From: Darksidea phi
Lineage: Eukaryota; Ascomycota; Dothideomycetes; Pleosporales; Lentitheciaceae
Assembly (NCBI GenBank): GCA_030770425.1
Contig: JASJFT010000148.1
Location: forward strand, 48,317 to 112,316
Length of the DNA: 64,000 nucleotides
Direction of reading: 5' to 3'
The position numbers and the translations under genes are program-made. The notes beneath the pieces are model-generated. The model saw nothing but the letters and a program-made list of their open reading frames with translations, was not told the DNA's origin and searched no databases. This document shows, piece by piece, positions 38,971 through 62,912 of this stretch. The first letter of the stretch is position 1. Each line of letters starts with the position of its first letter.

Positions 38971-39106
38971 GCAAGCTCGAAACTGCATGACCACGTGGCT
39001 GCGCTAAGGTTGCTGGGACAACATCAACACATCAGTGCCGGGCTCGTTCCTAACATGGGTTTGGCAGGCGTTCATCTCTGCAATCGCATCCGTCAAGTTA
39101 TGTACG

Positions 39107-40495
39107 ATGCATTATTCTTCAATCGAGTCTGACTTCCTTGATACCCTCTCGCGTATCGACGGGTGGATCGCGCAGACGGAACTACCTGACCAGCCTGCAG
39201 ATGCAGACGGCTGGGTAGCCCCGCCGACATGGCCAGTGTCGCCGTCCCTCAGCATTCGCCTTCTCCATCGCACCCGCACCCGCACCCGTCCCCAACCTTT
39301 TGAGCGCCAGAAGATGCAGACGATGCGCCCGCCACGCCGGCAGAGCCCGCGCAAAAGGCCGGAGCCGGAGCCGCGTGAGACAAACGACAAGCTTGAGACT
39401 CTTACCCTCGACTCCGACGACGAGCATTACGATTTCGCTGGCAGAGATGCAGCCGGACGCCTTACATTGAGCGAGTCACATCCATCGTCCATCTTCAGCC
39501 CGGCCCCCATAACGGCAAAGTCCTGCTCCTCGAGCCCCTCCAAATCTATGGCCCACCTCGGCCTCGTCGAGAAGCCCATCCGCCAGCGAAACACCGAGTC
39601 GGCTACCGAACTACCGGCCGATGTGCGTCAGCTGTGGGAAGACATGGATTCGATCCGGCTCAACGAGGGCACCGTACCGCGCCAGATCGAGCCCAACTTC
39701 ATAGCGGCCTACCCGAGCAAAACCCGCCCGTACATGTTCTTCGATGCGGGGCCCAGTGCGAATCTCGCGCAGTTACAGGCCCAGCTAGTCGAGCTGGAGG
39801 ATATCAAGCAGGCAGCACAAGATTTTCGGACAACTCCAGCGAGCGAGGCGAGCTGGAACTGCGACGTCCACTCACGCATTATACGCCTAGCCGTAAAAAG
39901 CATTCCGGGCATTGCGCAGGAGAACGTCACGGCTGTACGACCAGACAGGGCTCTTGTACCGAGGGACCGCCATGGCGGCAACATGGACAGCAAGCTCGTC
40001 GACTACGTCCTCATCGCCGATCATTCCCTCATCGACCTCCACTGCGCCGAACGCTGCCTGAACCGCACCGTTCCCAGCATCAACCACACACTCGATTCGT
40101 GCCCCCGTCTCCTCACCAAACCTATCGTCGTCAGCATCAAAACCAAAACACCCAACTCGGACGAGTCCGAGGCTATGGTGCAACTATCACTATGGGCCGC
40201 AACGCATTTCAACCGCCTACGCACCCTACTTCCATCCGCCCAACGAAAACGCGGTACCGTGCGCGTCACGCTACCGCTACTGACCGTGCCGGGTGATATT
40301 TGGCGGCTGTACTTTGCTGTGGATAGGGAGGATTGCATTGAGATCCTTGGAGGACTGAAGATTGGGAGTACAGATACGTTGTTGGGGTGTTATCAGGTGC
40401 TGAGGGGGTTGGTCAGGGTGTGTGAGTGGGCGAGAGATGGCTATGTGCCGTGGTTTAGGAAGAATGTCCTGGGTGAATGTGATGCTGTGACATGA
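39107..40495 (+). CDS. PD-(D/E)XK nuclease-like protein
   Basis: Intronless, 462 aa from the ATG at 39107; the frame is open for 24 codons further upstream, without an ATG. The N-terminal 160 residues are polar with a short helix (DFLDTLSRIDGWIAQTELP) and basic Pro/Arg stretches. The C-terminal half matches the fungal PD-(D/E)XK-like family: helix SWNCDVHSRIIRLAV, then SKLVDYVLIAD (the catalytic-type Asp), NRTVPSINHT, and the strand PIVVSIKTKT, followed by the QLSLWAATHFNRLRTL helix and VPGDIWRLYFAV. In the family as I know it, the strand reads SIETK; here it is SIKTK, so one acidic metal ligand is replaced by Lys and cleavage activity is doubtful. Cellular role unknown; such genes are common in accessory fungal DNA. 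Confidence 0.8.
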   Translation: MHYSSIESDFLDTLSRIDGWIAQTELPDQPADADGWVAPPTWPVSPSLSIRLLHRTRTRTRPQPFERQKMQTMRPPRRQSPRKRPEPEPRETNDKLETLTLDSDDEHYDFAGRDAAGRLTLSESHPSSIFSPAPITAKSCSSSPSKSMAHLGLVEKPIRQRNTESATELPADVRQLWEDMDSIRLNEGTVPRQIEPNFIAAYPSKTRPYMFFDAGPSANLAQLQAQLVELEDIKQAAQDFRTTPASEASWNCDVHSRIIRLAVKSIPGIAQENVTAVRPDRALVPRDRHGGNMDSKLVDYVLIADHSLIDLHCAERCLNRTVPSINHTLDSCPRLLTKPIVVSIKTKTPNSDESEAMVQLSLWAATHFNRLRTLLPSAQRKRGTVRVTLPLLTVPGDIWRLYFAVDREDCIEILGGLKIGSTDTLLGCYQVLRGLVRVCEWARDGYVPWFRKNVLGECDAVT

Positions 40496-58405: not shown

Positions 58406-59506
58406 TCAACCGAAATTTAGAGTGGTTGAGTCCCCATATGTCTGGCCTTGCAATACATTTTTTCCATAAACAGAGCCATAATTTTGAAACACCGGCCCTC
58501 CTGCCGGCTTGGACTCGCCTTCCAGGCAGCTCTCTTGAGTTTCCACCGTCTTAATTGTCTCGTCTACTGTGCGTACCTTTGCTATCTCCGCCCGCGGTAG
58601 CACTAACAGCACCTCCTTTGCGCACGCTGCTGCCGCACCCGCTGCGTATGGCTGCCATTTCTTGTTCTTGTGTGAATCCGCATAGTCGCAGATCCCCCGG
58701 ATGACAAGACATGGGAAGCTGTTCATCAGCCCTGCAGCCTCCATCTCGAAGCAGAGCACCCCGCCAAACTCCTTGCTCACGGTGTCCCTCTCTGCAGCGT
58801 CTTTGATGACCTGGTTGCCCGACGCAATTGTTCCATAGTGTATTACAGGTTCTTCGTTAGGTCGCGGCTGTCGGTCGACCTGTCCATCGGCGCTGCATGA
58901 CTGGCACGTTTGTCCATGTTCGTGGTTGTATTCTGCTTGGAATAGGACGTCCGGCCCGGTGGCCTCGCGAGTGAACTCTGGAAGCCGCCGAAGCTTTGCG
59001 ATGTGTTCCGTAAGCTTAGTCTTCCGCCGGACTTGGTTCGATCGCAGCTTGTTGACTGCACCTAGCAGTATCGTTGGCGGAGAGGTCAGGAAGCACGTCC
59101 GCTGAAACCCACTCGGAGTTGCCTTTCCAAAGTCGTATTGTATCACTCCACCGTGACCCAGATGCGGCTGGCTAACCACCACGTCTCCTAGCCGGATGTC
59201 TACCTCTGCGCTCGGCACGCCGCCTCCAATGCCAACCATCAGACCGAACCGTACCGATCTAAACGTCGCCCGCAGCTGCGTCGCCACCGCTGCCGCAGGG
59301 TTGTTGCCTATCAAGCCTGCCGGCAGACACACGATAACGACGTTATGTTCACCAACTCGTCCGAGTGAGTAAATGTTGGTGTCGTGTTCATCCTGCTCGA
59401 GATCTTCATGCTCTTCGTCGAGCATCTCCTGTGCAGCCGCTAGCTCGATGGGGAGCGCGCATATCCATCCTATAGTGTAGTCGTCGCGGCGGAGTCGGCG
59501 TGCCAT
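58406..59506 (-). CDS. PNP/UDP nucleoside phosphorylase-like protein with C-terminal amyloid-type motif
   Basis: Intronless, 366 aa, ATG at 59506. Residues ~10-315 are a PNP_UDP_1-type phosphorylase domain: YTIGWICALPIELAAAQEML, the Gly-rich phosphate-site region MVGIGGGVPS followed by DIRLGDVVVS, GTIASGNQVIKDA, the nucleoside-binding CFEMEAAGLMNSFP, and VIRGICDYADSHKNK (catalytic-type Asp). In fungi this domain is usually the N-terminal effector of NLR proteins; here it stands alone. After a short linker, residues 338-366 carry a Gly/Asn/Gln motif with VFQNYGSVYGKNVLQG and a final TTLNFG. The same motif begins the divergent NLR at 60259. Known fungal NLR/effector pairs share such amyloid motifs, so this protein is a probable effector. 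That it cleaves nucleosides, and which ones, is inference. Confidence 0.88.
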   Translation of the reverse strand: MARRLRRDDYTIGWICALPIELAAAQEMLDEEHEDLEQDEHDTNIYSLGRVGEHNVVIVCLPAGLIGNNPAAAVATQLRATFRSVRFGLMVGIGGGVPSAEVDIRLGDVVVSQPHLGHGGVIQYDFGKATPSGFQRTCFLTSPPTILLGAVNKLRSNQVRRKTKLTEHIAKLRRLPEFTREATGPDVLFQAEYNHEHGQTCQSCSADGQVDRQPRPNEEPVIHYGTIASGNQVIKDAAERDTVSKEFGGVLCFEMEAAGLMNSFPCLVIRGICDYADSHKNKKWQPYAAGAAAACAKEVLLVLPRAEIAKVRTVDETIKTVETQESCLEGESKPAGGPVFQNYGSVYGKNVLQGQTYGDSTTLNFG

Positions 59507-60258
59507 CTAGCGGCCTGTTGGATGGCAGAAACTCGTGGAGGTCGTGAATTCGTGGAGATAGATTGCAGCTTACGAAAGCGATGCAGCAACGGCCGCCAGT
59601 GGAGGACACACTGTTGCGTGCTCAGCCTCACTTTGTCACAGTAAGGTGGGGCTTTGCAACGCTCACCGGTTACGGAGCAGTATTCAGCCCAGGATGTAAC
59701 TCATCTGAGGGTACTTTTAACCTCAGCAGAGGTTAGACCCACTATGACTAAGCGCGCTATGACGCTAAAATTTTTGTTATATCAGGTGAGCTTGAACACG
59801 TTCTGAACACGTTTAGAATGTATTTAAACCTTAGGCTTGAAGAATATATATATTTAAAAAATAACCTTTATTATCTAAAGATTTACGCTAGAATATATTC
59901 TGAACGTGTTCAGAATTGTACTAACGTGTTCAGAGCGTGTTCAAGCTCACCTGATAATACTAAAATTTTAGCGTCATAGCGCGCTTAGTCATAGTGGGTC
60001 TAACCTCTGCTGAGGTTAAAAGTACCCTCAGACAAGGTACCTGCACGCCAGCATCCACTCGGCGCTAGGAACGATGTTGCTGGCGGCGCAGATATTGGCA
60101 TTAGCCACAGCTGACCAAGCGGGAGCTAGGCTGCGGCCCCTTTTCCCTTTCGTTGGATGTGTAAACCACTCCATCCGTCAAGAACGTATGCGCTTGCTTC
60201 ATCGCACTAGCACATTCATCTCGCCCGTCAGTAGCCTAGCATCGATGAGACCTCCATT
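59507..60258. promoter_or_regulatory. shared divergent promoter of effector and NLR genes, carrying an inverted-repeat element
   Basis: 752 bases lie between the start codons at 59506 and 60259. Nearly half of it is the inverted-repeat element at 59704-60032, so promoter elements must lie within, beside, or be provided by that element. Confidence 0.6.
59704..60032. mobile_element. 329-bp inverted-repeat element (MITE-like)
   Basis: Left end tctgagggtacttttaacct and right end are perfect inverted copies for about 71 bp. Near-perfect pairing continues to ~110 bp, including a gaacacgtt/aacgtgttc motif repeated several times. The ~100-bp centre is AT-rich. No open frame and no certain target-site duplication. 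Non-autonomous DNA transposon structure is the most likely reading. Confidence 0.85.
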
Positions 60259-62912
60259 ATGAGCCCAGCGGGCCGTAACTTCCAGTCGCACGGACCTGTT
60301 CAAGGCAACAACGTGCTCCAAGGTGTAACGACGGGCGACAACACCATAATTAACTTCCTAGAGAGCGGCAAAGGCAGAGCCCTGCAGGATGAAAGGGAAG
60401 GTTTGTATACCCTTGCTAGACCTGTAATATACCTCCAGACATCTGACACGTCGCAGCCTGCCTCCGCACCCTCGGCTTCGTCGAGATCGACTCGCGCGAG
60501 CAAAACATCAGCGCTGCCGTCGAACAAACGTGCGACTGGCTGTTCGATACCCTCGAATTCAAGACATGGCGAAATCGAACCGATCTGGCGACCAACAATG
60601 GAGTGCTTTGCATCAAAGGAAAGCCGGGTGCGGGCAAGTCGACGTTGATGAAGCATACGCTGGAGCACTGCAAGAACGCCTTCCCTGACGAGCTGATTAT
60701 CGCGTACTTCTTCAACGCTCGAGGAAGCACTCTAGAGAAGAGTCCACTAGGGATGCTGCGGTCGATCGCATACCAGCTTGTCAAAAAAGACGTCACACTG
60801 TTTGACAAATTCCTCGTCACCTTTCGCGACAAACATATCACCAGTCAAGGCCGTGAATGGGAATGGCAACCACGAGAACTCAAGGCTTTCATCACTTCTG
60901 TGATCAAACGCTGGAAATCAAAGCCACTGCTCCTCCTTGTAGATGCGCTAGATGAGTGCAACGAGGCAGACATGCAGGATGTTGTAGACTTTCTCGAATC
61001 GCTGAGCATCGATGCAAACAAATTAGGCACCACTCTAAGAATCTGTTTGTCCCGACGCCACCATCCGCCTCTTAGAATCGCAAAGAGCCTAGAGTTGATC
61101 GTCGAGGACAACGAAGACCACCGGGAGGATATTGCCACATACATTAGAGCGAAGTTGGCGAAACAAGATGCTGAAATTGAAGCTGAGATTAAGAAAAAGG
61201 CAAATGGGATCTTTATGTGGGTTGTACTCGTTGTCAGGTTACTGAACAAAGCGTTGTTTAAGGTGAGGGGCAAGAAAAAGGCAATGCAGGATGCGCTTAA
61301 GGAGATCCCAGGCGAGCTAGAAGAGGTGTTCCGAATTATGTTTAACAAAGATGACGAAGACATGGCTGAGACAGTACTCATGCTGCAGTGGGTATTGTTT
61401 GCGCAGCGGTCACTAACGCCAGAAGAGCTTTATGCTGCCGTTGAAGCAGGAGACACGGGCTTGTGGAGTCAATCGAGCGATATAGACCACGATTCTATAC
61501 AGCAGAGCATCGAGCATTTGTCCAAAGGGCTGATCGAGATACGAGGTAGGGATGTGCAGTTCATTCATTTGTCAGTCAACGATTTCCTTCTCCGGAACAA
61601 GAGGCTGCAGACGTTGGACAAGGCGCTGGAGCTCGACCCGGTCACTGCTAGCCACCGCTATCTCTGGGCCTGCTGCTGGTCACATATTCGACAAGTCAGT
61701 AGTACAAGCACGAAGGAGGCATACAAGGAACTGCGTCGTAAGTACATATTTCTAGGGTACGCAGTAAGTCACATATTGGACCATGCCCAAAAAGTCCTAG
61801 ATGAAGGGGCAGTTGGACAAGCGGGCGTTATAATCGAAAAGTGGCTACGAGACGGTAGCAGCTGGTTTGAATGGTGGAAAAGCTTTCTCAGTGCTACTCG
61901 CGCTTTCACCGAGCACAGGTACTTGGAAGGAAACATGGATGCAGGACTATTGTACATGCTCTCACTTGGCGGTTATGGAAGCTTGGTCAAGTGCATGTTG
62001 GCTGAGGATGGCGAGGAGGGCGCGAAGGGCGCAGAGGTCAACACTCAGGGTGGCAGGTACGGCAACGCGCTCCAGGCAGCTTCAGTCGGAGGAGAGCAGC
62101 AGATTGTAGAGCTGCTGCTCAAGGCGGGCGCGGACGTCAACGCTCAGGGTGGCTACTACGGCAACGCGCTCCAGGCAGCTTCAGTCGGAGGAGAGCAGAT
62201 TGTGGAGCTGCTGCTCAAGGCGGGCGCGGACGTCAACGCTCAGGGTGGCGAGTACGGCAACGCGCTCCAGGCAGCTTCACGGCAAGGAAACCAGCAGATT
62301 GTGGAGCTGCTGCTCAAGGTGGGCGCAGACGTTAACGCTCAGGGTGGCGAGTACGGCAACGCGCTCCAGGCAGCTTCATGGCAAGGAAACCAGCAGATTG
62401 TGGAGCTGCTGCTTAAGGCGGGCGCAGACGTTAACGCTCAGGGTGGCGAGTATAGCAACGCGCTCCAGGCAGCTTCAGTCGGAGGAGAGCAGCAGATTGT
62501 GGAGCTGCTGCTCAAGGCGGGCGCGGACGTCAACGCCGGCAAAACGCCCCAGGCCGCCTTACACCATGGTATCGCAAACATGCTCCGTAAGGCAGGAGCA
62601 ACTGCCATCGTTCAACATACCGAGTCCGAAGTCGTCAACGCCGGAGTAGCTGACATAGGTGTTAGCGTCGAAAAGAGACATGAAGGTGCTTCGCCCGAAG
62701 CTGTTCCAGCCATGGCTTCTCCAAGCACAGAAGCGCCTTCACCCGGGATATGGTTTCCACTTCGGCTGCAGGAGATTTATGCTTCTCCGCGCCTGGCCCT
62801 GCTTTGGCCAGGACTGTTTTTCATAGGAACAGGCGGAGTTGTTCTATGGTTGGTGAGAGGTAGACATGTGGCTTTTATATTATTTGGAGATATTTGGCGT
62901 AATCGTATCTGA
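60259..62912 (+). CDS. NACHT-ankyrin NOD-like receptor with N-terminal amyloid-type motif
   Basis: Exons are 60259-60400 and 60457-62912; the intron has a gtttgt donor and a gtcgcag acceptor, and phase (G|CC) is kept. The product is 865 aa. Residues 8-33 carry FQSHGPVQGNNVLQG and GDNTIINF, matching the C-terminus of the divergent phosphorylase-like protein. Next is the pre-NACHT helix (CLRTLGFVEIDSREQNI, CDWLFDT). NACHT landmarks are Walker A GKPGAGKST (~102-110) and Walker B LLLLVDALDE (~205-214), then winged-helix-type sequence (LQWVLFAQRSLTPEELYAAV) and HLSVNDFLL. Residues ~575-744 are five almost identical ankyrin units. Residues ~827-847 form a membrane-helix-like stretch (LALLWPGLFFIGTGGVVLWL). 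By family knowledge it is a STAND sensor that oligomerises on ligand binding and templates the motif on its partner effector. Confidence 0.9.
62037..62545 (+). repeat. near-identical 102-bp ankyrin-coding repeats
   Basis: Five in-frame units of 102 bp (one is 99 bp, lacking one Gln codon) inside the NLR. Each encodes NAQGG-x-YGNALQAAS-(four variable)-QQIVELLLKAGADV. DNA identity between units is very high, including silent sites. Confidence 0.9.

Follow-up and report, generated by a model that had tools for sequence, protein, structure and literature searches.

Fungal NOD-like receptors (NLRs) can signal to effectors encoded by adjacent genes through a shared terminal motif, as described for HET-S/NWD2 and the HRAM pairs in the accessible parts of PMC4518210 and PMC5485727. 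A related arrangement built on enzymes of the purine nucleoside phosphorylase (PNP) family is already on record: the accessible text of PMC9815663 describes PNP_UDP effectors that carry an amyloid motif at the C-terminus and are encoded near NLRs, among them the PUASM pairs, for which fibrils and foci were demonstrated, a PNP_UDP pairing with NLR12, an HRAM3-like motif, and another motif, PF01048_015, found in four pairs and seen with PNP_UDP effectors only. A later paper, in its accessible part, counts two PNP_UDP motifs, PUASM 1-2. Outside the fungi, the bacterial Detocs system likewise employs a PNP-family immune effector (PMC11249213, accessible part). Here, we describe a divergent pair of genes in Darksidea phi that encodes a free-standing PNP_UDP-family enzyme and an ankyrin-repeat NLR, the two carrying one and the same terminal motif. 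The pair lies in a window of 64 kb, the final part of a 112,316-base contig (C55) in a genome of 51.35 Mb. In our judgment the locus probably represents receptor-to-enzyme signalling by amyloid templating, a two-gene module of regulated death that would end in the activation of a nucleosidase.

The effector gene occupies 58406..59506 on the minus strand (stop codon within this range) and encodes a 366-residue protein that matches PNP_UDP_1 at 51.5 bits (cut-off 25.1); its divergent neighbor on the plus strand encodes the receptor. An earlier note on this DNA had aligned the C-terminus of the phosphorylase-like protein, residues 340-365 (58412..58489, minus strand), with residues 8-33 of the receptor (60280..60357, plus strand), and this observation stands: 16 of the 26 residues are identical in an ungapped comparison. 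The motif pair has a Smith-Waterman score of 87; shuffling the receptor terminus 5000 times gave 55 at most and 300 full-length shuffles gave 53 at most, and BLASTP of the two terminal stretches, as a single comparison, returns an E value of 2e-10. When searched against the 51-Mb genome (E up to 10), the effector tail matches itself and the receptor exon (E 1.3e-4), the receptor motif matches itself and the effector (E 6.5e-5), and neither matches anything else, with the limit that each search scored two candidates after a word-based first look, which strongly diverged copies could escape. The shuffles, the BLASTP result and the uniqueness in the genome refute a chance likeness statistically; with the motif at two places only in 51 Mb and recurring in other genera, we regard coincidence as practically negligible. 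The absence of a gap, also part of the earlier claim, is a property of this genome; elsewhere, all 13 other aligned effector copies hold one extra residue at that position. The motif thus stands at the effector C-terminus and at the receptor N-terminus, in adjacent genes, which is the layout of the published pairs (PMC9815663, accessible text) and argues for signalling between the two proteins.

How the likeness was maintained can be read from the codons. Across the 26 motif positions the two copies agree at 17 first, 21 second and just 6 third codon positions; because of this low third-position agreement, the likeness must be old and kept at the protein level, and a recent duplication of DNA is ruled out as its source. 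That the motif is common to both proteins, unique in the genome and held at the protein level is one reason for preferring amyloid signalling. A functionless relic of common descent, left by a split or duplicated gene end, would also have produced two similar termini, and splitting is conceivable in this genome since 12 of its 24 PNP matches look fused to an NTPase: a P-loop lies within 1.5 kb downstream on the same strand in 12/24 and on the opposite strand in 0/24, as expected for PNP domains fused to NLRs. It is plausible from the sequences that the pair in the window is such a PNP-NLR in split form. A relic without present function is nevertheless very improbable, given that 16/26 residues are kept while the third positions are alike at 6/26, and that the tail, unlike the linker, has been conserved across a number of dothideomycete families.

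The conservation of the tail was assessed in a homologue search with the PNP protein that gave 7997 sequences above threshold, the C-termini of the best 120 being compared. The tail is present in 13 of these best 120, and P0089 carries a variant. A protein search of public data with the effector tail alone let 2 candidates through its word filter, against the 13 copies already known, and other effector classes bearing the motif may have escaped it. In a 14-effector alignment the mean pairwise identity is 0.74 for the motif core, 0.48 for the preceding linker and 0.81 for the enzyme domain; the greater conservation of the core over the linker speaks for a functional motif of the kind proposed. 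Kalmusia, Periconia, Zopfia and Bathelium all belong to the Dothideomycetes (Pleosporales, Trypetheliales and one unplaced family). Relatives were absent from the viral_contigs and genome_contigs collections, of which fungal genomes as such are not part.

The receptor side recurs as well. Among 180 candidate receptors, four bear the motif (from Zopfia, Kalmusia and Periconia, and one Joint Genome Institute protein). The pair itself recurs in Kalmusia, where effector and receptor have consecutive locus tags (N0V90_005867/N0V90_005868), and probably also in Periconia, where the longest contig given for both entries is 191,446 bases long. Adjacency and pairing are thus kept in relatives, from the divergent genes seen here to the Kalmusia tags and the shared longest contig of Periconia, and this recurrence, together with the four other receptors, is a further argument for a signalling pair. 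The earlier note had held that motifs diverging without pairing in related species would count against its proposal. Pairs do persist in other genera; the receptor motif hardly varies among relatives and is too invariant for a check of covariation.

The effector enzyme has the fold of methylthioadenosine/S-adenosylhomocysteine (MTA/SAH) nucleosidases and keeps the catalytic Glu/Glu/Asp of that family: E21, E256 and D274 align with E12, E174 and D197 of the pneumococcal enzyme, E256 and D274 being kept in 40/40 sequences and E21 in at least 90%. In the Foldseek list, ranks 48 and 50 fall to uridine phosphorylases; no immune PNP effector is among its listed rows, and such a match may lie further down. 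The effector tail has a predicted local distance difference test (pLDDT) score under 50 and is accordingly modelled as disordered. Both the modelled disorder of the tail and the kept catalytic residues count in favor of a nucleosidase activated through an amyloid motif. A modelled disordered tail is also compatible with a homotypic docking element that unites receptor and enzyme without any amyloid fold, and such an element would account for the lack of a match to the known amyloid motif rules that were applied. We consider docking of this type unlikely, as the amyloid motifs of fungal pairs already published are just such short stretches, rich in Gly, Asn and Gln and placed in the very same way (PMC9815663, accessible text), and PUASM-like and sigma systems occur in this genome.

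The assignment of the motif to a class was examined directly. The PUASM pattern FxGxGxQxxGxGxF, strict or loose, is found in 0/19 motif copies, and the PP patterns (an NxGxQxGxN core, or G-hydrophobic-Q-hydrophobic-G), applied without a positive control, also in 0/19. The sigma profile PF17106 did not match the receptor N-terminus, P0005 or P0122 at E values up to 10, or the effector at E up to 1; as positive controls, the tails of two SesA proteins of this genome were matched at 25.1 and 29.6 bits (cut-off 27.6). These pattern checks and the PF17106 search speak against membership in the sigma, PUASM and PP families. The HRAM rule (Gly at 19; hydrophobics at 5, 8, 10, 16 and 18) is satisfied at best at 3/5 positions, in 6/19 copies tested, and is a weak rule, as 229/2000 shuffles reach 4/5. 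It is quite possible, if not the outcome we would bet on, that the motif is the already catalogued PF01048_015 (probably "PUASM 2") and the locus a plain member of a listed family, in which case the mechanism would be unchanged. The restriction of PF01048_015 to PNP_UDP effectors, in its four reported pairs, and the later count of PUASM 1-2 both favor this identity. The main text of PMC9815663, as far as accessible, does not name Kalmusia, Periconia, Zopfia, Pleosporales or Dothideomycetes, an absence that says little. A literature search, with subscription papers and supplements outside its reach, returned nothing pointing to the window motif.

The comparison with the described systems shows both what is shared and what differs. 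The PUASM pairs have in common with the pair described here a PNP_UDP effector, the C-/N-terminal placement of the motif, adjacent genes and an origin in the Pezizomycotina, but assembly has been shown for PUASM (PMC9815663, accessible text), whereas the window pair, with its different motif, is known from sequence alone. The PUASM NLRs are annotated as NACHT or NACHT-WD40 in the same source, whereas our receptor has ankyrin repeats. The PF01048_015 pairs likewise join a PNP_UDP effector to an NLR. In HET-S/NWD2 and the HRAM pairs the effector is a pore-forming HeLo protein with two motif repeats (PMC4518210, PMC5485727, accessible parts), whereas the present effector is an enzyme with one copy. 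Detocs differs in being bacterial and composed of three genes, with ATP cleavage reported (PMC11249213, accessible part), whereas the activity of the window enzyme is a prediction. Because the accessible text of PMC9815663 reports the PUASM, NLR12 and PF01048_015 pairs, this kind of system, in which an NLR is partnered by a free-standing PNP_UDP effector, is known. The earlier note had read the locus as an effector and its NLR joined by one amyloid-type motif; the anatomy of the pair fits this and the pairing recurs in other genera, but the pairing of free-standing PNP_UDP proteins with NLRs is not new.

We favor amyloid templating and propose the following sequence of events. A ligand would be sensed through the ankyrin repeats of the receptor, which would then oligomerize and gather several copies of the N-terminal motif, and these copies would take up an amyloid-type fold. 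That amyloid would form at all is suggested by the position of the motif and its resemblance to published ones. As the motif common to both proteins, the positions it takes and the pairs on record suggest, the receptor motifs could serve as templates for this fold in the enzyme's C-terminal motif, and the resulting clustering would activate the nucleosidase. Cleavage of a purine nucleoside or nucleotide would then harm, arrest or kill the cell, possibly in immunity or incompatibility. The substrate may be ATP, a suggestion to which we attach rather less than even confidence. Several findings weigh against amyloid templating. None of the known rules applied (PUASM, PP, sigma) describes the motif. 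It is conserved less than the enzyme domain (0.74 vs 0.81), and its 26-residue span ranks 122nd of 341 from the bottom. Two proteins, P0009 (Phaeosphaeriaceae) and P0073 (Bathelium), bear the tail and have no partner receptor among the 180 candidates. Finally, the window effector motif scores 95, 95, 97 and 90 with the other receptors and 87 with its own.

The history of the tail differs from that of the enzyme in front of it. In a first tree of PNP domains, covering 105 of the 120 relatives (those over 402 residues or anchor-less left out) and 18 of the 24 own-genome matches, 12 of the 14 motif-bearing rows fall in one clade; P0038 and P0073 (Bathelium) stand elsewhere, beside another PNP of the D. 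phi genome. A single clade of tail-bearing PNPs is rejected by the approximately unbiased (AU) test (p-AU 0.0019) on a smaller tree. That tree comprised 12/14 motif rows (without two that are short at the N-terminus), together with 26 further relatives and 3 sequences of the genome itself chosen after the first tree. Sequence comparison thus places the tail on two separate PNP lineages, which is new here; this is most simply explained if the tail moved or if the catalytic domain behind it was replaced under a constant label. We also observed that a different common tail, NTWNN..DSKI.EQV..KTV.GNQSI, ends 5 of the 120 listed PNP relatives (P0021, P0034, P0057, P0065 and P0069), which are scattered across the PNP tree. 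It is possibly another C-terminal signalling motif.

The receptor gene is predicted to consist of two exons. The ATG at 60259 is out of frame with the long NACHT-ankyrin open reading frame (ORF), and a predicted 56-nt GT..AG intron (60401..60456) joins the first exon (60259..60400, with start codon and motif) to the second (60457..62912, with linker, NACHT-type NTPase and ankyrin repeats), all on the plus strand, giving 865 residues. This model is supported because four receptor relatives, P0121-P0124, carry identical residues at the exon junction. The ORF from 60603 matches NPHP3_N (84.4 bits) and Ank_2 (99.9 bits); PF05729 NACHT scores 22.5 bits there, below the cut-off of 26.7, and 28 bits with neighbors in frame. 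A short N-terminus, an NTPase and repeats thus make up the receptor. Its near-identical ankyrin units (62027..62536, plus strand; 99 bp, 5.2 copies, 89% matches) vary in number among relatives. The repeats of fast-evolving fungal NLRs show high internal conservation, as these units do, and they would suit a fast-changing recognition surface. Between the divergent start codons an element resembling a miniature inverted-repeat transposable element has inserted (59696..60040; 118-nt arms, 94% complementary), with 18 genome matches on 8 contigs, several of them at contig ends; it may alter the shared promoter of the two genes. Past the receptor, a short frame from 63575 resembles by eye the annotated C-terminal end of the Kalmusia receptor P0122; it may mark the start of a transposase or reflect a run-on of the annotation. 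Elsewhere in the window, an ORF at 39008-40492 has a PD-(D/E)XK nuclease domain (PF20516, 172.5 bits).

In the same genome is another divergent PNP/NLR pair, reported here for the first time, whose motif does not match that of the window pair. It lies on contig C421 (11001-17000), and its tails meet the loose PUASM pattern and miss the strict one. The motifs score 87 within the window pair and 72 within the C421 pair, and 17 both for the window effector with the C421 receptor and for the C421 motif with the window receptor. By eye, a frame downstream of the C421 NLR looks like WD40 repeats. A sigma-type cluster on contig C423 (304895-310500) comprises a lipase-like DUF676 frame, the two SesA proteins, which end in NACHT_sigma tails, and an NLR whose linker is the closest to that of the window receptor (60% identity).

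With two PNP pairs whose motifs do not match, this one genome offers a natural test of insulation between signalling lines. The two PNP lineages found behind one tail suggest that effector domains are swappable under a constant label. We give close to an even chance, if slightly less, to the broader proposal that the motif defines a further family of fungal amyloid signalling motifs for nucleosidases across the Dothideomycetes, the tail serving as a portable label over exchanged PNP domains and several insulated lines, here the window pair and the PUASM-like C421 pair, operating in one fungus. A soluble enzyme switched on by clustering would lend itself to a simple assay, which would show whether fungal PNP effectors cleave ATP like a bacterial one. 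If the motif assembles, it would add one more addressing code to the amyloid signalling of fungal NLRs.

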